Source: a virus
Length of the DNA: 53,627 bases
Direction: 5' to 3' (one strand)
Virus record (IMG/VR): IMGVR_UViG_3300012984_000020
Location: 1-53,627 of that record
The notes under the pieces are model-generated. The model was not told the DNA's origin and did no database searches. It worked only from the letters and a program-made list of their open reading frames with translations. Both the position numbers and the translations under genes were made by a program. This document shows, piece after piece, positions 4,167-53,588 of this stretch (its first letter is position 1; every line of letters begins with the position of its first letter).

Positions 4167-5153
4167 ATGCCGAACCCCAAGCAAGACGATGACGAAGAGA
4201 TCACCATCATCGACGGTGCTGATGGCACTCACCGGGCCAACGGCAAGGCCGCGGCCGCCGAGGACGAGATCGAGATCATCGATGACACCCCCGAGAAGGA
4301 CCGGGGTCGCAAGCCCCTGGACCGCGAGGTCAAAGACCCGGATGACGAGGAACTGGCCCAGTACTCGGCCGGCGTCAAGGGCCGCATCAGCGAGTTGACG
4401 CATGCACGGCACGATGAACGGCGTGCAAGGGAGGCGGCAGAACGGGAACGGGATGAAGCCGTCCGTGCCTCCCAGGCCCTGCTGGCGCAGAACCGCCAGC
4501 TGGCCCAGCGCACGACCAACGGCGAGACCCACCTCATCGCCGCGTCCAAGGCGGCCGCCGAGGCGGCAGTCGAGGCCGCGCGCGGGAAGCTGCGTGCCGC
4601 CAAGGAGGCGTTCGATACCGACGCCGAGATGGCCGCCAACGAGGAACTGCTGGAGGCCAAGATCAGGGTGCGCGAGGTCGAGCGCTTCAAGCCGCCCCCT
4701 GTACAGAAGGCCGAGGATGTTGTACAACTCGCGCCTATACAGGCCCAGTCTGACCCGGTTGACCAAAAGACGCTGCGCTGGCAGGCAAAAAACCAGTGGT
4801 TCGGGACAGACGGCAACGAGGAAATGACCAGCTTCGCGCTCGGGCTTCATCAGAAGCTCGTGAAAGCCGGCGTTGATCCTCGCTCTGACGAGTACTTCCA
4901 GAAAGTCGATGGCCGACTGCACGAGGTCTTCCCCGATTTCTTCGGCGAGAAGGCAGCGCGCGACGAGCCCGACGACCGCTCCCAGCAGCGCACCCAACAG
5001 CGCACCAGCCCCGTGGCCTCCGCGTCACGTTCGGCAGCAGGTGTGACCAAAGTCCGGCTTACCCAGTCGCAACTCTCGCTGGCTAAGAAGTTCGGCATCA
5101 CACCCCAACAATATGCGCAAGAAGTCGCCAAACTGGAGCAGAAAAATGGCTGA
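4167..5153 (+). CDS. Putative capsid scaffolding protein
   Basis: A 328-residue protein with a very acidic N-terminus (DDDEEITIIDGADG), a predicted long coiled coil at about residues 75-175 rich in Ala, Glu and Arg, and a basic, Gln-rich C-terminal helix (LTQSQLSLAKKFGITPQQYA). Charge layout, length and place between portal and capsid genes match phage scaffolding proteins, which bind capsid subunits by a basic C-terminal helix and leave before packaging. No protease motif was seen. ATG at 4167 follows GAAGGAGCATAACC. Confidence 0.6.
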   Translation: MPNPKQDDDEEITIIDGADGTHRANGKAAAAEDEIEIIDDTPEKDRGRKPLDREVKDPDDEELAQYSAGVKGRISELTHARHDERRAREAAERERDEAVRASQALLAQNRQLAQRTTNGETHLIAASKAAAEAAVEAARGKLRAAKEAFDTDAEMAANEELLEAKIRVREVERFKPPPVQKAEDVVQLAPIQAQSDPVDQKTLRWQAKNQWFGTDGNEEMTSFALGLHQKLVKAGVDPRSDEYFQKVDGRLHEVFPDFFGEKAARDEPDDRSQQRTQQRTSPVASASRSAAGVTKVRLTQSQLSLAKKFGITPQQYAQEVAKLEQKNG

Positions 5154-11991: not shown

Positions 11992-12672
11992 ATGGCATGG
12001 GGATCAGGCGGCTGGGGATCGGGACCGTGGAGCACTGAGATATGCGCCGTGGTCGAGACCGCGGGCGCCCGAGATGTCCCCAGCGCCATCCCTGAGTATC
12101 CGGCGCTCGTCGTCGAGCAGGCCGGCGCGCACGATGTCCCCGCCATCACGCTGTCGATGCCGGTGGGTGTGGTCGAGGCGGCAGCTGCGCACGATCTGGC
12201 GCCGGGCTTCGGCGGCATCGCCACCTTCATCCTGACCGAGCGCGCGGGTATCACCGACGAGCTTGGTGTGATCCAGTTCGGCGGGGTGGACATTCTTGAG
12301 CACGTCGGCATCCACGACCAACTTATCGGCCTGCCGGTGTTCCTGGGCGCGGTCATCGAGAAGGCCGGCGCGCATGAGACGCTGGGCTTCATCGGCACCT
12401 ACCTCGTGAACGTCATCGAGCACGTCGGCGCGAGAGACACACCGGGGCTCGCAGCCAGCACGTTCAGCTTCGGCCTCACCGAGCGCGCGACGGCACACGA
12501 CATGCCGCGCGTGGGGGTCGAGACAGGTGTCTTGGTCATCGAGCGGGCCGGCGCGCATGATGCGGGATCGGCCCTGACCGACCTGTGGGTGCCGGTGGAC
12601 GACAGCGCGCCGGGCATCTGGGTGCCGGTCAACGACAATCCGACGAGCCCCTGGCTGCCGGTCACACCTTGA
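11992..12672 (+). CDS. Repeat protein with nine AGAHD-type repeats
   Basis: A 226-residue protein. Residues 20-192 contain nine imperfect repeats built on V-[VI]-E-x-A-G-A-H-D-x-P with 11-16 residues between them (for example VVEQAGAHDVP, VIEHVGARDTP, VIERAGAHDAG). The N-terminus is GSGGWGSGPW. The C-terminus has two copies of W-V-P-V-[DN]-D (LWVPVDDSAPG, IWVPVNDNPT) and a third W-x-P-V. This looks like an elongated solenoid or fibre stalk directly upstream of the tail fibre gene. No enzymatic motif was seen. Confidence 0.65.
   Translation: MAWGSGGWGSGPWSTEICAVVETAGARDVPSAIPEYPALVVEQAGAHDVPAITLSMPVGVVEAAAAHDLAPGFGGIATFILTERAGITDELGVIQFGGVDILEHVGIHDQLIGLPVFLGAVIEKAGAHETLGFIGTYLVNVIEHVGARDTPGLAASTFSFGLTERATAHDMPRVGVETGVLVIERAGAHDAGSALTDLWVPVDDSAPGIWVPVNDNPTSPWLPVTP
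12049..12567 (+). repeat. Nine-copy protein-coding repeat
   Basis: In-frame repeat units of about 54-66 bases encoding [VIL]-x-E-x-A-G-A-H-D-like blocks. Copies 4 and 5 read LTERAGITDEL and ILEHVGIHDQL, so the consensus Ala-His is replaced while Glu, Gly and Asp stay. The DNA copies have diverged, indicating selection on the protein rather than recent duplication. Confidence 0.7.
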
Positions 12673-12684
12673 GGAGCACACAAC

Positions 12685-14886
12685 ATGCCCAGTTCATACA
12701 CCCCCCTCCTGCGCCTCACGCTGCCCGCTGACGGCGAGCTTGTCGGCACCTGGGGGCAGACGGTCAATAACGGCATCACGTCGCTGGAAGAGGCTGCCAT
12801 CGCGGGCACCGCCAACGTGGCGCTGGTCGATGCCGACTATGTGATGTCCGTCGCCAACGGTGCGGCCGACGTGGCGCGCAACGCGGTGGTGCGCTTCACC
12901 GGCGCACTCACGGCCCAGCGCAACATCACCGTGCCGTCGAGTAGCAAGACCTACATCATCCGCAACAACACCACGGGTGGGTTCGGTCTGCAGGTCAAGA
13001 CCGCGGCCGGCACAGGCGTGGTCGTGCCGGCCGGCAGCTCGATGCTGCTCTACTGCGACGGTGCCAACGTCATGCAGGCGGTGGACTCCAGCGGCACGCA
13101 GAAATTCGCCGACGGCACTGCGGCCTTGCCGGGTATCGCGTTCGCCGCGCAGCCGAACCTGGGCCTGTTCCGGCCGGGGGCGGATGTGTTGGGGTTCAGC
13201 ACGGCCGGCACCGAGCGCATGCGGATCGACGCAGGCGGCGATGTTGGCATTAGCGCAATACCATCAAGCCTTGGTGGAAATATCACAACGCTTTCAATTC
13301 GTGGGAAAGCCAACGCACGCGGCGGCGGCATTCGCCTGCCGACCTTGGACGGCTCGCAAGAGGGCACTATTTATCAGGCCGATGGGCTACTTACGCTCGG
13401 CACAATATCTGCGCACCCGATCCAATTAATTAGCGGTAATGTAGAGCGCATGCGGGTTGATACGGCAGGCAATGTCGGTATCGGGACTACCGTCCCGTCC
13501 GCAATTGCGGCATCGCGTCTTCTGCAAATCGTTCCGCCAGATTACACAACGCAAGACGCAGAAGCGCAGATTTTTGCAGCCGGCGCATGGTTTCGTGCCA
13601 ACTCAAGCAGCAACAGTGGCGGCGGCTACGGCGGTTTTCAGTTTTACCAAAATAGCGTCAAGCGTTTCGGTATTGTTGCCCTCGGTGCGGGTGTAGACAC
13701 CATGCTGTTTACAATCGGTAGCGCCGGTACTGAGCGTATGCGGATCGATGCGGCCGGGAAGGTCGGTATCGGGACGACTACCCCCGATTGCCTACTGCAA
13801 GTTATGGCTGCTGGCGTGGCAATTCCTGCCGCTACCCGGGTGCTACGAGCCCACATTGGCGGTGCGTCTACTTGGGGCGCAAATGGCCGTGAAGAAATTG
13901 GTATCGGCTATTCAGGTATCGGCTCAGAGTTTATGGGCGCTGATAACTGGGATACGGTCTTTACGGCCGGCACTTCTACGCAGTTCACAAATGGTATACA
14001 ACCGATTCAGTTGCGGCTTACATCAGTCGGTAATTTGGTTCAAGGTGGTGTCGGTTCTAGCTGGTGGGGTGGCCGCAAAGGTATTCAGCTCGTCGGTAGT
14101 AACGGTAATGGCGATGCGTCGTTTGTATGCTCCCCGGGCACCATCAACTATATGGCGCTTGGATCGAACTACTACTTCGATCCTGCTGTATCGACAAGGT
14201 ATGTCGGAGGGGGTACGGCAACACGTTATGAGCAAGGTAATGGTGTACACAGCTGGAGTACGGCCCCTGGCGGCACGCCTGACGCTCCGTTGACATTTGC
14301 CGAGTCAATGCGCATTGATTCCACTGGTAGGTTGCTTCTTGGCACTACGACTAGCCCAGGCAATTTTAAGATGGATATAGCGCACGATGGGGGCGGATCA
14401 AACGGTGTGGCTATTAGGGATACCGGCGGTGTTGGCTCACCAACTTCGCTCAGCATACTTACGCGCATTTCAGACGCTGGTACTGCGGTAGCCATAGATG
14501 CAGCTGGTACTGGACAAGTGTTCAAGATACAGCGTAACGGCAATGTCTTTAACCTTAATAACGCGTATGGATCGTTGTCGGATGTGAAGCTGAAAGAGAA
14601 CATCACTGATGCCACACCAAAACTTGATACTTTGAGTTTGGTGCGCGTCGTCAACTACAACTTAAAAGCAGATGCAGACAAAGCAAAACAAATCGGCATG
14701 ATTGCACAAGAGCTGGAATTGCTATTTCCAGGGCTCGTCGAGGAAGTGCCTGACGTTGAGCTTGTAGATGGTGAGCGCGTACTGCTCGGGACGGCTACAA
14801 AGGCCATCAAGTACAGCGTATTCATTCCGATTTTGGTTAAGGCTGTACAGGAACTTGCTGCTCGCGTGGCCCAACTGGAGCACTGA
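12685..14886 (+). CDS. Tail fibre with S74 intramolecular chaperone
   Basis: A 733-residue receptor-binding protein candidate. The N-terminal ~150 residues (LLRLTLPADGELVGTWGQTVN) form a virion-attachment part common to tail fibres. Four copies of an [ERS]-x-M-R-[IV]-D-x-x-G-x-[VL] stalk motif follow at about residues 176, 254, 350 and 540. The C-terminus is a peptidase S74 endosialidase-type chaperone: GSLSDVKLKENI holds the Ser632-x4-Lys637 dyad, with IGMIAQELELLFPGLV after it. Self-cleavage before Ser632 would release a 102-residue domain after trimerisation. DNA from about 13240 to 14880 is visibly less GC-rich than its surroundings, suggesting an exchanged host-range segment. Confidence 0.88.
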   Translation: MPSSYTPLLRLTLPADGELVGTWGQTVNNGITSLEEAAIAGTANVALVDADYVMSVANGAADVARNAVVRFTGALTAQRNITVPSSSKTYIIRNNTTGGFGLQVKTAAGTGVVVPAGSSMLLYCDGANVMQAVDSSGTQKFADGTAALPGIAFAAQPNLGLFRPGADVLGFSTAGTERMRIDAGGDVGISAIPSSLGGNITTLSIRGKANARGGGIRLPTLDGSQEGTIYQADGLLTLGTISAHPIQLISGNVERMRVDTAGNVGIGTTVPSAIAASRLLQIVPPDYTTQDAEAQIFAAGAWFRANSSSNSGGGYGGFQFYQNSVKRFGIVALGAGVDTMLFTIGSAGTERMRIDAAGKVGIGTTTPDCLLQVMAAGVAIPAATRVLRAHIGGASTWGANGREEIGIGYSGIGSEFMGADNWDTVFTAGTSTQFTNGIQPIQLRLTSVGNLVQGGVGSSWWGGRKGIQLVGSNGNGDASFVCSPGTINYMALGSNYYFDPAVSTRYVGGGTATRYEQGNGVHSWSTAPGGTPDAPLTFAESMRIDSTGRLLLGTTTSPGNFKMDIAHDGGGSNGVAIRDTGGVGSPTSLSILTRISDAGTAVAIDAAGTGQVFKIQRNGNVFNLNNAYGSLSDVKLKENITDATPKLDTLSLVRVVNYNLKADADKAKQIGMIAQELELLFPGLVEEVPDVELVDGERVLLGTATKAIKYSVFIPILVKAVQELAARVAQLEH

Positions 14887-38943: not shown

Positions 38944-39147
38944 TCAGTCCTTGAACGCGTCGATGCGGTCGCCGAGGATGCAGCTGTAGTGCAGCATATG
39001 GATGGCCTGATGGTGCAGGCGCACCTGCTCAGCGCTATCGGTAGCGGCGAAGACTGGCGAGCCGATGAACGCGTTCAGCGCTTCACGCTTGACATCGAGA
39101 TCGGCCTTCTCTTCGACGACACGCTGCTGGTAGGGCATGAGGGTCAT
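38944..39147 (-). CDS. Small conserved phage protein (crAss001_48-related type)
   Basis: A 67-residue helical protein starting on an ATGA overlap with PEP-CTERM protein 2. The pattern PYQQRVVEEKADLDVKREAL, a short FIGSPVF and a closing helix HYSCILGDRIDAF matches small phage proteins annotated as crAss001_48-related. Function unknown. It is the last gene before the terminator at 38836-38880. Confidence 0.65.
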   Translation of the reverse strand: MTLMPYQQRVVEEKADLDVKREALNAFIGSPVFAATDSAEQVRLHHQAIHMLHYSCILGDRIDAFKD

Positions 39148-39740
39148 ACGAGCTTCCGACGAGTTGCTGCCAGCGCGAACAGGCCCAGGCCAGCAAGCGC
39201 AAGAGATGCGGGCTCGGGCACTTGCGTGACGATGAACGGGTCAGGGCTGCCGGGCGGGAGAAACGTCATGTTCTGCGACAGCAGCGAGCCTTGCTTGTCA
39301 CCCGCGTCGTTTAGGAAGCGCAGCTTCAGGTGCGGCGTGTGCAGCGCGTCCAGCGCCAGCGAGCCGCCGGTCAGGTCGATCGTGAATGTCATGTCATTGG
39401 TCAACGCGATCGGAGGCGCTGCGTCGAAGCAGACGCCACCGCTGTCGCCACCGCTGCAGCCATTGGCATTCAGTTCGTTGGGCGAGTACACCCAGTTGCC
39501 CGGGGTCAGCGTACCGCCGGTCGGATCGAAGCCCAGGTCTTTGAAGCCCAGGTTGTCCAGCTTCGTGGCCGGACCCCAGTCGCCCGTGGCGTCCAGCGCG
39601 CCCTTGATGCGCAGCGTGAAGCTGTTGCTGTCGGTCTGGTTGAAACCAAACAGCACGCCTTGTTCGGCGTAGATGAACGTGGGCGCGGCCTGTGCGCTGA
39701 ACGCCAGCGCCGCGAGTACGGTGAGAAACACTTTCTTCAT
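39144..39740 (-). CDS. PEP-CTERM surface protein 2
   Basis: A 198-residue exported protein. Signal peptide: MKKVFLTVLAALAFSAQA with likely cleavage after AQA. The body is beta-rich (SFTLRIKGALDATGDWG, MTFTIDLTGGSLALDAL), with a Cys pair near residues 94 and 103. The C-terminus is a full PEP-CTERM signal: VPEP, a hydrophobic helix, then TRRK. Such signals are processed by exosortases, membrane proteases of polysaccharide-producing Gram-negatives; none is encoded here, so the host must supply it. It lies in one operon with the Acb2-like gene and overlaps the next gene, so it is not a stray insertion. Confidence 0.9.
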   Translation of the reverse strand: MKKVFLTVLAALAFSAQAAPTFIYAEQGVLFGFNQTDSNSFTLRIKGALDATGDWGPATKLDNLGFKDLGFDPTGGTLTPGNWVYSPNELNANGCSGGDSGGVCFDAAPPIALTNDMTFTIDLTGGSLALDALHTPHLKLRFLNDAGDKQGSLLSQNMTFLPPGSPDPFIVTQVPEPASLALAGLGLFALAATRRKLV

Positions 39741-42698: not shown

Positions 42699-43058
42699 TC
42701 ACTCCTTCCCGTAGTCCGGGTGCTTGCGGTTCATGTGGGCAGCGAGTTGCTTGAAGCTGCGCTTGCAGCAGGGGCACACGCCGTGCGAGATGCGCTTGCG
42801 CAAGCGCTCCGTCTCGGCCTGCGCCGCGGTGGCTTGCTGGGCGAGGCGCGTCTTCTCGATCTCGGCCGCGCTGAGCGCCTTGCGCAGCTTGTCGGCCTCG
42901 CTCGCGCCGGGGAAGTTCTGCGTGTGTCCGCTCGGGCAGTAGAAGCTGCGGTGCGACTCGCGCAGCGAGCGCTCAAGCGCTTCGCTCAGCACGATCGGTG
43001 CGCCGCAGCTGCAGCAGTCGAGCAGGTTCAGTTTGAGGTTGATCTCGATGGTTTCCAT
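42699..43058 (-). CDS. Double zinc-finger protein
   Basis: A 119-residue protein starting at ATG 43058, sharing one base with the nuclease stop (TAATG). The N-terminus has CCSCGAPIVL and YCPSGHTQ, a likely first zinc site. A coiled coil (ALSAAEIEKTRLAQQATAAQ) links it to a C-terminal C2H2-like finger CPCCKRSFKQLAAHMNRKH. This organisation is common in small phage proteins next to nuclease genes; probably nucleic-acid binding. Confidence 0.7.
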   Translation of the reverse strand: METIEINLKLNLLDCCSCGAPIVLSEALERSLRESHRSFYCPSGHTQNFPGASEADKLRKALSAAEIEKTRLAQQATAAQAETERLRKRISHGVCPCCKRSFKQLAAHMNRKHPDYGKE

Positions 43059-43720
43059 TACCTGATCCCCTGGAATTCGCACGTCGTCACTTCGCAGTAC
43101 TTCTTGCACAACCCGTTCTGCTTGGGCGGCCAATGGTTGCTGGCGATCGACGCCTCGATGGCGCCAGAGCGCTCGCGCCAGCGCCACCACAACTGCTCGG
43201 CTTGGTGGCGCTTCACCTTGTGTTTCGCCACTGTGCCCTTGAGCACGAATAGTAAGCCGCCGGACACGCTCTGCACAGTCGGGAAATGCTGGAAGATCAT
43301 CAGCGCCATGAGCAGTAGCTGATCGGTGTCTGGGTACTTGTCGCCACCAGACTTGTAGTCGTAGCAGCGCGCCGTGGTGCGGTCGGGCGAGAGGATGATG
43401 AGGTCGGCCACGCCGCGCACCCAGCAGTCCTTGGCGAAGAAGTCACAGGGCGTGAGGTCTTCCTTCAGGCCCATCTTCCACTCGCACAGCTTGTCGCCCG
43501 GCATGGCCTTGAGCGAGTCCATGATCGGCTGCATGAACTTGAAGTCCTTGCCGAGCGGGGTGTTGTAGAGGATGAAGTGCTCGGCCTGCTTGTGCAGTTC
43601 CGTGCCGTACAGGTTCGAGGCGTTGTCCTGCTTGGGGAAGTGCTTGAGTATCTTGACCTCGTGGAACTTCCGGCGGCACGTCTCGTAGTCCTTGATGGTG
43701 GAATATGACCAAGTCAGCAT
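43058..43720 (-). CDS. Cas4/RecB-like PD-(D/E)xK nuclease with Cys cluster
   Basis: A 220-residue exonuclease candidate. RecB-family landmarks: an N-terminal SYSTIKDYETCRRKF, YGTELHKQAEHF (40s), catalytic Asp106 in RGVADLIIL, and D121-Y-K123 in CYDYKSG. Four Cys (C15 near the start; C205, C209 and C214 at the end) are placed as in Cas4/AddB proteins that carry a 4Fe-4S cluster. Phages use such nucleases in recombination or degradation of host DNA. ATG 43720 follows AAGGAGAAGAC; overlaps the upstream Cys-rich peptide. Confidence 0.82.
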   Translation of the reverse strand: MLTWSYSTIKDYETCRRKFHEVKILKHFPKQDNASNLYGTELHKQAEHFILYNTPLGKDFKFMQPIMDSLKAMPGDKLCEWKMGLKEDLTPCDFFAKDCWVRGVADLIILSPDRTTARCYDYKSGGDKYPDTDQLLLMALMIFQHFPTVQSVSGGLLFVLKGTVAKHKVKRHQAEQLWWRWRERSGAIEASIASNHWPPKQNGLCKKYCEVTTCEFQGIR

Positions 43721-43806
43721 GTCTTCTCCTTCTCTCGCTTCAGACAGACGTGGCACTTCTTGCCGCCGTTGCGCCAGCAGTAGCAGCGCATCTGGTATGC
43801 CTTCAT
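43714..43806 (-). CDS. 30-residue Cys-rich peptide upstream of the nuclease
   Basis: ATG 43806 has a strong GGAGG four bases upstream. The peptide contains CYC near residues 8-10 and CHVC near 18-21, which could form a small zinc knuckle (RCYCWRNGGKKCHVC). Its end overlaps the nuclease start by 7 bases. It begins 12 bases after the terminator T run. Confidence 0.6.
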   Translation of the reverse strand: MKAYQMRCYCWRNGGKKCHVCLKREKEKTC

Positions 43807-43817
43807 GATGCCTCCAT

Positions 43818-43845
43818 AAAAAAGCCCCCAGCCTACGCTGGGGGC
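43818..43845 (-). terminator. Rho-independent terminator after PEP-CTERM gene 1
   Basis: On the - strand GCCCCCAGC-GTAG-GCTGGGGGC is a perfect 9-bp stem followed by TTTTTT. It starts 19 bases after the PEP-CTERM gene stop and abuts the ribosome site of the next gene. Confidence 0.92.
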
Positions 43846-43864
43846 CATGCCATTCAGACGCGAT

Positions 43865-44476
43865 TTAAGCGGCCTTGCGGCGACGAACGACGCCGGCAGC
43901 CATCAGGCCCAGTCCGACCAGCGCCAACGACGCAGGCTCGGGCACATTGGACTCGTTCACCTGCAGGTTGCCGGTGTAGCTGGCCGGCTGGTTGCCAGCG
44001 AGGCCAGAGATCGTGCCGGTGATGCTGAAGGCGTACCGGCCGGCGGCCAGATCGGTGAAGTCGATCACCGTGGCGTAGGCCGGGTTGGTGAACCCGTCCG
44101 CAATCATGGCGCCGGGGGTCAGCGCCGAGCACAGACCGCCTACCGTCGGCCCGTTCGGCGCGCAATTGCTGCCCGTCACGCTGAACAGCTGCACATCGAA
44201 GTTCGAGATGTTTCCGATCGGCAGGAAGATCGCGTTGACGGACGCGGCGCCGGCTGGGTTGATGTCGAAGACCCACCAATTCGTGAAGGCACCATTGAAG
44301 CCGGTCGTAGCGTTTCCGAAGGTGCTGTTGTCGTCGGTGAGCGGGCTGTGGGTGCCGAGGTAGGTGCCCGGCTGGCCCTGCAGGTACGCGCAGTTGTTGC
44401 AGACCACACCGGCCGAGGCCGCGGCGGACATCGCCAGCATGGCAAGCGCGCCGAGGAAAGATTTGAGCTTGAGCAT
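43865..44476 (-). CDS. PEP-CTERM surface protein 1
   Basis: A 203-residue exported protein. Signal peptide: MLKLKSFLGALAMLAMSAAASA with cleavage likely after ASA. The mature protein starts near VVCNNC and has a beta-rich body with NGAFTNWWVFDI and YAFSITGTISGLAG. The C-terminus is a full PEP-CTERM signal: VPEPASLALVGLGL, a hydrophobic helix, then RRRKAA. ATG 44476 follows AGGAGTTCAC. With its own promoter-like box upstream and a strong terminator downstream it looks like an independent cargo gene. No exosortase is encoded in the window. Confidence 0.92.
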   Translation of the reverse strand: MLKLKSFLGALAMLAMSAAASAGVVCNNCAYLQGQPGTYLGTHSPLTDDNSTFGNATTGFNGAFTNWWVFDINPAGAASVNAIFLPIGNISNFDVQLFSVTGSNCAPNGPTVGGLCSALTPGAMIADGFTNPAYATVIDFTDLAAGRYAFSITGTISGLAGNQPASYTGNLQVNESNVPEPASLALVGLGLMAAGVVRRRKAA

Positions 44477-44518
44477 GTGAACTCCTAGGAGGTTGACGGG
44501 ACGGGGAAAACCCCCGCT

Positions 44519-44528
44519 GACTATACAA
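44519..44528 (-). promoter_or_regulatory. Possible promoter -10 of PEP-CTERM gene 1
   Basis: On the - strand TTGTATAGTC resembles TTGTATAATC of the 50406 element. It lies 43 bases before the start codon; no good -35 was found. A short GGGG-GTTTT-CCCC hairpin lies in the leader. Confidence 0.4.
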
Positions 44529-44592
44529 AGCAAGCATCTTGCCGCCGTTATGGATCAATGACTTGCGGAGGGTGGTGTAAAGAAATCCGACA

Positions 44593-45030
44593 TCAAAACG
44601 GCAGCGGGTCCAGCATCAGCGTGTCGCACCCGTCGCCGCAGTCGATGGCGAAGTGGCACGCAATCTCGACGGCAGTGACCGCGCTCTTGCCCAGGTACAT
44701 CGCTGCCTCGGCGAAGTCGCGCCCGCTGCCCCACGCGGCGCATTTGTTCTCGTAGATCATCGGGTAGGGCGCTGCGTCGTAGACGTGGATGCCCTTCTCG
44801 TTGATGACGATCAGCGTGGCCTTGTCCTCGCGCGCCTTGGCCGGGAACTTCTCCGGGTCAGCGCCGGCCTTATGCCACTCACGTATCTCGATGCCCACAT
44901 CCCACACGCCAGTGATGCCGTACAGCTGGTTGTTGTGCTTCTCGATCTTCGTGCAGGTGTGGCGCAAGCCGGCGCTGGTGACGCGCTTGTCGGCCGCCAG
45001 CACGCTGCCGTCCCAACAGATTACAGACAT
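44593..45030 (-). CDS. Proteasome-like Ntn-hydrolase
   Basis: A 145-residue protein with the beta-subunit/HslV pattern: SVICWDGSVLAADKRVTSAG at the start, KIEKHNNQLYGITGVWDVG, a late AWGSGRDFAEAAMYLG and CGDGCDTLML. After Met removal the first residue is Ser, where proteasome subunits have a Thr nucleophile. D14 and K28 are candidates for the conserved Asp and Lys. Related small phage proteins are known. It could be a self-assembling peptidase or amidase; the substrate is unknown. ATG 45030 follows GGGGGAGTAATC. Confidence 0.75.
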   Translation of the reverse strand: MSVICWDGSVLAADKRVTSAGLRHTCTKIEKHNNQLYGITGVWDVGIEIREWHKAGADPEKFPAKAREDKATLIVINEKGIHVYDAAPYPMIYENKCAAWGSGRDFAEAAMYLGKSAVTAVEIACHFAIDCGDGCDTLMLDPLPF

Positions 45031-45032
45031 GA

Positions 45033-45218
45033 TTACTCCCCCACCATGAGCGAGTGCGCAACGATCTCGCACTTGGTGACGAAGTACTCGGCGCCGTCGT
45101 CGCTGTCCATCCACTCCTTGAGCACTTCGCCCATGTGGTCGGACGTGCTGGTGATCTCGGTGGTGGACTCGATCCCGTCGCCGGGGTCAACCATGTAGGT
45201 GATCTTGAAAGTCGTCAT
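45033..45218 (-). CDS. Small acidic hypothetical protein
   Basis: A 61-residue protein starting on an ATGA overlap. TTFKITYMVDPGDGIESTTE suggests a beta hairpin, then a helix (MGEVLKEWMDSDDG) and a final strand. Family not recognised. Confidence 0.6.
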   Translation of the reverse strand: MTTFKITYMVDPGDGIESTTEITSTSDHMGEVLKEWMDSDDGAEYFVTKCEIVAHSLMVGE

Positions 45219-50422: not shown

Positions 50423-51021
50423 ACAGGTTTCTTGAGGTCGCTGACCTCGTCGATGATGAGGACATCCGCCCGCTTGCCGGTCAGGGGCTTGCCGGGGATG
50501 GCCGACCCGCTGCCCTGGAAGCTGGACACGAGCGTGGCGCCAGCGGCATTCTGTCGCGTCTGCGTGGCGTTGGCGCCGGCCACGCGCCGCATGTTCAGCA
50601 TGTGCATGAACGCCTCGGCCGTGCGCCGCGCCTCGTCGATCACGACCGGGTCGGTCAGCACCGTGCCCTTCTCGACCGGCATGTGCGCGACGAACACCAG
50701 CCGGAACGACGCGGCCTGTCCGACCACTTGGTTGTAGCCCAGCTGCAGGATGTAGTGCGCGCCACCGAACAGGCTGCCGACGACGCGTGCCTCGTCCAGC
50801 GCTGGCCCTGTCCAGTTGCCCTCCAGCACCTTGGACGTGGCGACACGCACGGGGACAAGCGCCTCCAGTTTCGTGATGCTGTTCATCTGCAGCGCGCGCT
50901 GCTCGGGCGCTGGGGGTATCTGTTTCTCTCGATTGATTTTCATGATCTCTTGCTCAAATTTGCGGGTTAATGCCTTATCGACGCGTACAGCTGCGGCGAC
51001 GATGTCTTCGTCGTTAATCAC
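50416..51021 (-). CDS. Hypothetical protein in the MoxR/VWA cluster
   Basis: A 201-residue protein starting at GTG 51021 (GTGA overlap, GGAGA upstream). The N-terminus is helical (VRVDKALTRKFEQEIMKINR); the middle has FRLVFVAHMPVEKGTVLTD. It ends ADVLIIDEVSDLKKPVV, a Walker-B-like hydrophobic-DE motif, but no Walker A was found. Not recognised; its place between the VWA and DUF3150-like genes suggests it is a part of the same system. Confidence 0.6.
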   Translation of the reverse strand: MINDEDIVAAAVRVDKALTRKFEQEIMKINREKQIPPAPEQRALQMNSITKLEALVPVRVATSKVLEGNWTGPALDEARVVGSLFGGAHYILQLGYNQVVGQAASFRLVFVAHMPVEKGTVLTDPVVIDEARRTAEAFMHMLNMRRVAGANATQTRQNAAGATLVSSFQGSGSAIPGKPLTGKRADVLIIDEVSDLKKPVV

Positions 51022-52202
51022 AAGCTCTCCTTGGAGATGCGCAGCACCTTCCCCCGCGCCGGCTGGAACCGATACCCACCGACGACGCCCCACAGCAGCG
51101 GGCCGGACGGGCACTCGAACTTGTCCTCCACCATGCCGTCGGTCAGCATGATCGTGGCCTGCGGCTTCATCTGCTTCTCACGCATGTAGCGGGCCACGAC
51201 GGACACCGTGGTGCCCCCGCCACCCTTGGCCTGCAGCTTCTTGTCCATCTGCCCATAGTCGTTGGGCTTGAACACCTGCACGCCGGCCACCTTGGTGTCC
51301 CACCAAATCACTGTCACTGATAAGGGTTGGAGTTGCTCGCACACCCTGCCGATCTCGCCGAAGATGCGTGCGTAGTAGCGGCGCATGGACCCCGAGGTGT
51401 CACAGGCCACGACGAGATCACCGGCCGCCTCGCTGTAGTGCGACGGCAGCGCGATGTCTAGTGGTGCGAACAGCTTGTTGCGCGGGCACCAGCGCGAGAG
51501 TTCATCGCCCTCGATGTGCTCCTGCAGGAACTGCTGCATGGGGTCGCGCCAGTTCGTCTCGGTCGTCTCGAACCCGCCGAGCGATGCAGCGCCGGCGCCC
51601 TCCCCGCGCAGCCGGGCCGAGATGATCTCGCCCTGCACACGCGCGTCGTTGAGCATCGCCTCCTCGGCCTGCGCTGCCTCCGGGTCGCCTTCCCCTGCTT
51701 CGCGCTGCTCGTGCTTGTCCATCGGCTTCTTGGACTCGCCCGGCTGCTTGTTCTTGATGAGGTCGGCGAGGACTTCCAAACAACTCCAGTTCCTGTACCG
51801 CTCATCGATCAGCGGCGGGATGTCCGTCGGGCGCTGCACGAAGCCGCGGCCCTTGTCCATCTCCTCCACCATCAGGTTGACGACGTAGTCTGTCGCTTGG
51901 TTGGCCTCGTCGGGGTGCGCCTTGAACTCGGCGTTGTAGGCCGTGCAATGCTGGAGCAGCTTGTGGCACTGCTCGTGCGCCACGACGTAGCGCAGCTGCC
52001 CTCTGTTCAGGCCCTGCGTGATCCACGCCTCGTTGTAGGTGCAGTCCAGCCCGTTGGTCTTGGCCGTCGGCACGTCCATCCCAGCGATGTGCACGTTGCC
52101 CACCTGGGTGACAGCGCCGATGCGGCTGAACTCAGGGTCGCCCATCAGATCGAGGTGGACGACGGAGATGCGCTCGCGCGCGGTGAGTATGTCGTAGCTC
52201 AT
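51018..52202 (-). CDS. VWA-like metallopeptidase (DUF2201 type)
   Basis: A 394-residue protein. The N-terminal metallopeptidase-like domain has H76-E-Q-C-H80 in YVVAHEQCHKLLQH, with a downstream acidic helix YVVNLMVEEMDKG. A Glu/Ala-rich linker follows (about 165-200). The C-terminal VWA-like domain has the D268-T-S-G-S site (VVACDTSGSMRRYY), GGGGTTVSV and MLTDGMVED. This two-domain plan matches DUF2201 proteins, whose genes usually lie next to MoxR ATPases, as here. ATG 52202 overlaps the previous stop. Confidence 0.85.
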   Translation of the reverse strand: MSYDILTARERISVVHLDLMGDPEFSRIGAVTQVGNVHIAGMDVPTAKTNGLDCTYNEAWITQGLNRGQLRYVVAHEQCHKLLQHCTAYNAEFKAHPDEANQATDYVVNLMVEEMDKGRGFVQRPTDIPPLIDERYRNWSCLEVLADLIKNKQPGESKKPMDKHEQREAGEGDPEAAQAEEAMLNDARVQGEIISARLRGEGAGAASLGGFETTETNWRDPMQQFLQEHIEGDELSRWCPRNKLFAPLDIALPSHYSEAAGDLVVACDTSGSMRRYYARIFGEIGRVCEQLQPLSVTVIWWDTKVAGVQVFKPNDYGQMDKKLQAKGGGGTTVSVVARYMREKQMKPQATIMLTDGMVEDKFECPSGPLLWGVVGGYRFQPARGKVLRISKESL

Positions 52203-52450
52203 ACGTTTCTTCCCATGTATTCGAGGTTGAACCATTCGCCGTTATCGGTCAGCACCGAGTAGCCCGTGTTGTTGCCAAAGAGATAGCGCTTCTTCTCAGG
52301 CGCCCAGATGAACTTGCTGTGCAGCGGGCCTTCGCCCAGCCGCAGCAGCATGTTGTTCGCCTGCTTGCAAATCTCCTCGGCATGCGCGTCGTCGCGCGGC
52401 TTCTCCAGTTCGATCCAGACACGGTTTGGTGGGTGTTTCTTGCTTGTCAT
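52199..52450 (-). CDS. Small hypothetical protein in the MoxR/VWA cluster
   Basis: An 83-residue protein, ATG 52450 with AAGGAGAACGAC upstream. RVWIELEKPRDDAHAEEICK and KFIWAPEKKRYLFGNNTGYS suggest a compact alpha/beta fold. Stop overlaps the DUF2201-type start. Family not recognised. Confidence 0.6.
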   Translation of the reverse strand: MTSKKHPPNRVWIELEKPRDDAHAEEICKQANNMLLRLGEGPLHSKFIWAPEKKRYLFGNNTGYSVLTDNGEWFNLEYMGRNV

Positions 52451-52460
52451 GTCGTTCTCC

Positions 52461-53588
52461 TTAACGAGCGTTGAGGACGCGCAGGCTCTGGGTGAGCGTC
52501 TGCGTGAAGGTAGCCGAGCGTGCGAACACGCCCATCTTCTTGGAGTTGTTGGACACGTTCTTGGTGAACAGCAGCCGCGCCTCACCGGGCATGCGGTTCA
52601 TGTACTGCGAGACCGCCTCCGCTGCGCCCGAGTCCTGCGTCTTGGTGATGAGTTGGAAGGCCAGCATCACGCGAGCGCCGGCGTTGTCGGGGATGAACGT
52701 GCCCATCGGGTCGTGGCAGATCGCACCGAAGGAGGGGAGAGACCTACCAAATCTCACGTAGGCCATGAGCAAGGCCGTGAACGCCCGGCCGATGGTGCCG
52801 TTGATGGCCGCCGTCAGCGTGTGCTCGTCCAGGCTGCCCCCTCGGTTGAGGATGTCGCTGGTGGCGTGCAGCGAGCGCGGCGTGGCCCACTTGTCCTGCA
52901 CGGCGCGGGGGTTGAAGATGTACGGGTTGGTCCGCGCCAAGTCCTGCCCGGCCTTGGCCGCGCCAGCTTCGTAGTCCGTGAAGGACTCGAACACCTGCGG
53001 GTACTCGTTCACACAAGCGATGACGGCCGGATGCAGGCCGCGCGGGATGGCGAACTGATCGATCCATTCCTGCGCCGTCGGCTTGCGCAGCGTCACGTCG
53101 ATCAGACGGTCGCGCAGGTGGGCCTGCATGCTGTCGCCCAGGCCCTCGGCGCCCAGGTTCGTGCAGGCAAACACGATGCTGCCCACCGGCATGTGGTAGT
53201 CGCCGATGCGGTGCTCGTACAGGATGGGCGCCAGCGCGTCCTTGATGGACTGCTTGGCCTTCGCTACTTCATCCAGGCAGATGACGATCGGCTTGCTGCC
53301 GTCGATGCCCTTGCGGTTGCCGTTGTGCACACCGAAGCGCTCGTTGGGAAGCTCGCGCGACACGCCGGCCTCACGGTCGAGGTCGGGCACCCAGATGCTG
53401 CCATCGCTCAGCTGGGTGCAGTCCACCGGGTTCACGACGTGGTGGTCTTTGAAGGCGTCGTCCTCGGCCAGCGCGTACAGCATCGAGGTCTTGCCGATGC
53501 CGCTCTCGCCTTGGACGAGGATCGTTCTGTCCATGCCGACGGCTTTGATGAGGTCGAGGGTCTGGACGGAGTTGAGGGTCAGTTTCAT
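52461..53588 (-). CDS. MoxR-type AAA+ ATPase
   Basis: A 375-residue ATPase with Walker A GESGIGKT (27-34), Walker B IVICLDEV (D106, E107), a sensor-1 Asn in VFACTNLG and an arginine-finger region HLRDRLIDV. MoxR ATPases work with VWA proteins as chaperone-like pairs that load metals or remodel complexes; the VWA partner is two genes downstream. The start at 53588 lies close behind a terminator, with only a weak GAAAG ribosome site. Confidence 0.88.
   Translation of the reverse strand: MKLTLNSVQTLDLIKAVGMDRTILVQGESGIGKTSMLYALAEDDAFKDHHVVNPVDCTQLSDGSIWVPDLDREAGVSRELPNERFGVHNGNRKGIDGSKPIVICLDEVAKAKQSIKDALAPILYEHRIGDYHMPVGSIVFACTNLGAEGLGDSMQAHLRDRLIDVTLRKPTAQEWIDQFAIPRGLHPAVIACVNEYPQVFESFTDYEAGAAKAGQDLARTNPYIFNPRAVQDKWATPRSLHATSDILNRGGSLDEHTLTAAINGTIGRAFTALLMAYVRFGRSLPSFGAICHDPMGTFIPDNAGARVMLAFQLITKTQDSGAAEAVSQYMNRMPGEARLLFTKNVSNNSKKMGVFARSATFTQTLTQSLRVLNAR

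Follow-up and report, generated by a model that had tools for sequence, protein, structure and literature searches.

A phage gene for a PEP-CTERM protein with a partner gene, matched sorting tails and a putative host-type control site

Gene A and its phage surroundings

The window, by which we mean the whole stretch of 53,627 nucleotides analysed here (IMG/VR record IMGVR_UViG_3300012984_000020), contains two genes for PEP-CTERM proteins, termed A and C (Table 1). The open reading frame of gene A is read on the minus strand, which the earlier, sequence-only reading of this DNA had not given, and its product of 203 aa starts with MLKLKSFLGALAMLAMSAAASA, followed by GVVCNNC, and ends with VPEPASLALVGLGLMAAGVVRRRKAA before the stop codon. 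That reading had described a Sec signal peptide and a complete PEP-CTERM sorting tail, and both descriptions hold. The signal peptide was recognized by eye, and the PEP motif, hydrophobic helix and basic cluster are all present. In the profile search that had been proposed as a check, the tail scored 25.6 bits against TIGR02595 (cut-off 16) and 30.9 bits against PF07589 (cut-off 20.7). A lipoprotein reading via C26 was rejected, since the sequence GVVC is not a lipobox. The model closest to the body of the protein is NF038126, the FxDxF family of PEP-CTERM proteins, which A matches over its whole length, but with 48.4 bits, 1.6 bits under the cut-off of 50. Six homologues from virus records exceed this cut-off (L003, L136, L139, L142, L154 and L160; 50.8-84.4 bits, with 56.3 bits for L003). 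An alignment of the family from eight phages has four invariant cysteines and 58 invariant columns. A structure model suggests, with low confidence, a beta-sandwich; its similarity to carbohydrate-binding modules (CBM-like folds) is weak, with TM < 0.4, and is not taken as evidence of binding.

Table 1. Positions of genes and signals in the window
Feature	Position	Strand	Basis or remark
HslV/proteasome-like peptidase, phage gene flanking A (phrog_1040, PF00227)	44593..45114	-	homologue in L124
17-nt box TGTCGGATTTCTTTACA, consistent with PEP-CTERM motif 1 as described in words (proposed PrsR site)	44576..44592	-	kept in L124
Sigma-54-like -24/-12 site CGGCAAGATGCTTGCT	44529..44544	-	10/12 specified bases; 52 nt from ATG
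Leader hairpin CAGCGGGGGTTTTCCCCGT	44501..44519	-	conserved in L124
Ribosome-binding site AGGAG of gene A	44482..44486	-	sequence
Gene A, FxDxF-type PEP-CTERM protein, 203 aa	43865..44476	-	sequence, profile matches
Sec signal peptide of A (residues 1-22), predicted cut after ASA	44411..44476	-	by eye
PEP-CTERM sorting tail of A, VPEPASLALVGLGLMAAGVVRRRKAA	43868..43945	-	PF07589 and TIGR02595 above cut-off
Intrinsic terminator of gene A	43823..43846	-	10-bp stem and T-run
PD-(D/E)XK (Cas4/RecB-like) exonuclease, phage gene flanking A	43058..43756	-	homologues in L123-L131
VWA-domain gene, common to window and L003	41639..42253	-	directly follows A in L003
Gene C, second PEP-CTERM gene, 198 aa, signal peptide, tail VPEPASLALAGLGLFALAATRRKLV	39144..39740	-	PF07589
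PEP-CTERM sorting tail of C	39147..39221	-	PF07589 match 39224..39156

The contig is that of a phage and is not chimeric at gene A. Its plus strand encodes portal, major head protein, tail fibre and a 2615-aa protein with an LPD38 domain, its minus strand primase/helicase, helicase, exonuclease and DNA polymerase A (polA), and a partial TerL (PF17289) lies at the left end. No tyrosine integrase was found in the contig, thus there is no sign of lysogeny. Phage genes stand on both sides of A, and in L124, a related phage whose polA is 75% identical to that of the window, the homologues of these two neighbours are adjacent (HslV-like at 12086-12532, Cas4-like at 12732-13400), separated by a gap of 200 nt and with no A between them. 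This argues against a chimera and provides an occupied and an empty version of the same site. Hence, chimerism with host DNA, which the sequence-only reading had named as an outcome that would count against it, is not borne out. The HslV-like peptidase gene itself is present in L124 and absent from L123.

The same reading had compared gene A with a moron. In line with this, A has a strong terminator of its own with a GC-rich stem, as had been claimed, and a putative promoter module, and it sits between phage genes that adjoin each other in L124; autonomous transcription is a prediction from these signals.

The VWA protein encoded between A and C carries a DxSxS motif and is 65-76% identical across otherwise unrelated contigs (L003, 5072-5674; L132-L134). 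A general functional cassette of A and the VWA gene was rejected, since L123 has the VWA gene without A, and L124 has A without the VWA gene. A further gene pair of MoxR-VWA-like type is found at 51018-52235 and 52461-53588 on the minus strand, where a DUF2201 VWA/metallopeptidase-like gene lies next to an AAA ATPase gene (phrog_1297).

A putative host-type control region upstream of gene A

The claim of a promoter-like box upstream of A stands in an altered form. No sigma-70 promoter was found there; the region contains a sigma-54-like site, GG at -24 and GC at -12, with 10 of 12 specified bases (P 0.012 by shuffling), and upstream of it a box that ends with TTTACA. This order resembles the published control region of proteobacterial PEP-CTERM genes, in which a 17-nt box ending with TTTACA is followed by a spacer of 32-92 nt and a sigma-54 -24/-12 site; it precedes 99 of 167 such genes, and PrsR has been proposed to activate them (Haft et al.; PMC1569441). 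Dependence on RpoN has been shown for one PEP-CTERM gene with such control (PMC9850573). Measured against the published spacer range, the distance from box to sigma-54 site is 31 nt in the window (with the site defined as 16 nt), just short of its lower end, and 41 nt in L124. The latter retains box, sigma-54 site and leader hairpin, though its gene A occupies a different genome position.

The sigma-54 pattern by itself is common in the GC-rich window, and the compound of box and sigma-54 site is rare. A scan of all loci on both strands (box at least 10/14, sigma-54 site at least 9/12) found nine compound sites, eight of which lie directly upstream of PEP-CTERM ORFs, compared with 0.17 expected. 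Two of these sites served to derive the box pattern, and L058 and L116, which share one gene pair, count as a single case; the independent sites are thus L061, L113, L058/L116, L104 and L109. TerL, portal or head genes are located near the compound sites of L113, L058 and L061. The A genes of L003, L136 and L138-L142 are without the module, so it is not required by all phages.

Other leader hairpins were seen among the relatives. In L003 the leaders of gene A (4270-4327) and of the VWA gene (5020-5071) form the hairpins CCAATGcggaaCATTGG and CCAGTGcggatCACTGG, and the changes between them preserve pairing. L138, L139, L140 and L142, phages without the sigma-54 module, have a different leader hairpin (for example CCAGGCacctctttaaGCCTGG) just 5' of the ribosome-binding site of A.

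Relatives, partner genes and matched sorting tails

A profile of three sequences recovered nine IMG/VR loci with gene A, and more were reached with a profile of B, a partner gene described below, which matched 21 loci, most with A adjacent; these include contigs of 39-40 kb, and several of the records contain TerL. The homologues of A belong to at least three phage lineages, often as part of a tandem pair and at varying positions, and gene A is mobile in position among these relatives. L003 is T7-like (primase/helicase phrog_239, ligase, exonuclease). L139-L141 belong to the lineage of the window (polA 67%) and have A placed before polA, L137/L138 together with L142 represent another lineage, and L136 is different again. 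In L136-L142, A and B, an unrelated PEP-CTERM gene, form a tandem in which either may come first; in L124 the partner of A is of a third PEP-CTERM family. No PEP-CTERM gene is present in 17 kb of L123, the closest relative seen (polA 89%). The homologue of B beside A in L136 (3884-4555) contains one in-frame stop, possibly decay or a sequencing error. In L129, L130 and L131 polA is interrupted at one position by about 1 kb of unrelated DNA, intron- or intein-like.

The window, too, has a second gene of this kind. The sequence-only reading had treated A as a lone, independent cargo gene, a view that does not hold given gene C some 4 kb away in the same phage and the tandem pairs of the relatives. 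The body of C is unrelated to that of A. It shows weak similarity, 28% over 128 aa when the tail is counted, to a PEP-CTERM protein from L058/L116, and a scan with gene C itself found no viral relatives. Neither A nor C has a match in 50,697 GenBank phages, and A has none in 72,556 plasmids; a short-tail query, possibly masked, likewise gave no match.

Could gene A be passenger DNA, picked up recently from a host or joined by chimeric assembly and functionless in the phage? In favour of such an origin, both the control module and the protein family are of a cellular kind. Against this, family A recurs in several lineages of phages and is flanked there by phage genes, no cellular relatives turned up in two scans of 84,980 genomes (conserved words of 7-8 residues were needed, and distant relatives may escape), the third-position GC of 0.87 is phage-like, and the gene is under strong constraint between the window and L003. 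We consider a passenger origin highly improbable.

The sorting tails of the paired genes resemble each other within a phage. The test covered 12 phages that have a further PEP-CTERM gene besides A: tail similarity was summed over the within-phage pairs and compared with 100,000 re-pairings, none of which reached the observed value. Some of these loci are not independent, being from the same record (L124/L143, L137/L157, L138/L158, L139/L144) or near-identical (L137/L138, L140/L141); when each close group was represented by a single phage, 1 of 100,000 re-pairings reached the observed similarity, and with B partners only, 29 of 100,000. From the sequences, a shared need to suit one host exosortase is the likely cause of this matching. 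Tandem genes might also have come to match by gene conversion, a cause that is less apt for the window, where A and C are 4 kb apart.

Matched tails also bring up an exosortase decoy, that is, abundant phage substrates that compete for the enzyme and block the sorting of host proteins, the protein bodies being irrelevant. The tail is indeed the only part common to all families, which a decoy would explain as well as the matching within phages. A decoy has no need of the conserved body of family A, with its invariant cysteines and columns and its constraint between the window and L003, and a pure decoy is therefore less likely; overall we regard the idea as quite unlikely.

Proposed host-dependent sorting and its possible role in infection

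Most PEP-CTERM proteins have no known function, though they help to bind cells and EPS in flocs and biofilms. We propose that A and its partner serve the phage as cargo, exploiting the PEP-CTERM/exosortase system of the host so that phage proteins end up at the surface or in the matrix of cells that make EPS, a reading to which we give a probability of about 0.6. The export and sorting signals, the phage context, the second PEP-CTERM gene, the mobility and the host-type control site, all read from the sequence, point in this direction. In a Gram-negative, EPS-making host, RpoN polymerase together with PrsR would transcribe A, mainly in cells already making matrix. Sec would then export the protein, its tail would retain it in the inner membrane, and the host exosortase would cleave it at the PEP motif, after which the predicted beta-sandwich domain may join the outer surface or the EPS matrix. 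The surface of the infected cell would be altered to the benefit of the phage, with an obstacle to later phages or altered aggregation as the likeliest effects. The enzyme must come from the host: as the sequence-only reading had claimed, no exosortase was found (PF09721 search of the window record), and among the matches listed none of 44 virus records with PEP-CTERM genes has one.

Three consequences for the host had been suggested, namely masking of receptors, a block to superinfection and disturbance of the matrix, and A may serve any of these. A change of the matrix, in which the sorted proteins join the EPS, strengthen or loosen flocs and biofilm and so retain infected cells or free progeny, is a possibility that we put forward tentatively. 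In Zoogloea and Aquincola, EPS is held to the cells by PEP-CTERM proteins (PMC9850573, PMC12188702), and the control module of A is that of host matrix proteins, but the carbohydrate-binding likeness of the A model is weak. Superinfection exclusion, a special case of host-sorted cargo, would mean that the sorted protein covers or alters a receptor or glycan layer, and that infected cells and their debris adsorb no more phage. Lytic phages use small exported proteins for this purpose (PMC9586334), and A is a small exported cargo protein with its own terminator in a contig where no integrase was found. By analogy, the superinfection-exclusion lipoprotein Llp of phage T5 is likewise a small exported phage protein at the host envelope (PMC9586334), but it has a lipoprotein anchor in place of exosortase sorting, and no sequence likeness is claimed. 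Exclusion has no obvious need for pairs of unrelated proteins or for sigma-54 control limited to certain growth states, and we rate it about as likely as a change of the matrix, each being less likely than not.

Host-sorted cargo can be compared with known systems. With the PEP-CTERM/exosortase (EpsH) system of Gram-negative bacteria (PMC1569441), A shares signal peptide, PEP motif, hydrophobic helix and basic end, and also the single-gene unit and the TTTACA-ending box with a sigma-54 site upstream. It differs in that A is found in a phage, in a record without exosortase, and with relatives that carry mobile tandem pairs. PepA of Aquincola/Zoogloea, an RpoN-dependent floc protein (PMC9850573), has in common with A the PEP-CTERM tail, the -24/-12 promoter and a stem-loop terminator 3' of the gene, while its body is of another family (A scores 29.9 bits against NF033554, cut-off 80). 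A viral case is that of the TIGR03118 proteins, which are listed among the transferred genes of viruses from hot springs and whose C-terminus is a putative site of exosortase interaction (PMC11003980). They are of another family than A, and that study did not analyse sorting, pairing or promoter. Our literature search found no description of phage PEP-CTERM genes, the nearest being the one sentence on TIGR03118 (PMC11003980). Phage carriage of host-sorted PEP-CTERM genes thus appears undescribed, as far as we found.

Such genes are not confined to the relatives of A. The survey for the same signal that the sequence-only reading had proposed located PEP-CTERM genes in dozens of uncultured viruses (IMG/VR), in addition to the negative GenBank result given above. 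The DNA pattern for VPEPAxLAL occurs in at least 119 stretches of IMG/VR, and among those listed at least 60 ORFs have complete tails under a strict filter. Among the matches listed, 50 of 51 tested records score above the PF07589 cut-off, portal phrog_156 is present in 18 of 44 records with PEP-CTERM genes and TerL phrog_2 in 15 of 34; the contigs are in many cases fragments, and host DNA may be present in some. In L055 and L074 the PEP-CTERM gene is less than 3 kb from a portal or TerL gene. It is an even bet whether these genes represent an undescribed and widespread class of cargo, mobile single or tandem exosortase substrates, some under the PrsR/RpoN matrix regulon of the host, which would add to the matrix only when the host builds it. 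If so, a phage gene would be wired to a sigma-54 matrix regulon of its host. That phages keep PEP-CTERM genes with matched tails, and sometimes with a host control site, suggests that the exosortase sorting route matters in infection, and the phage proteins could serve as small, separable probes for testing this route.

A separate viral PEP-CTERM family, with the motifs ILTFGQ...GTPITATENG, comprises 31 ORFs in one cluster (L016, L030, L039, L055, L066 and others). It has no match in GenBank phages or plasmids, and several of its members lie on contigs with portal or TerL.
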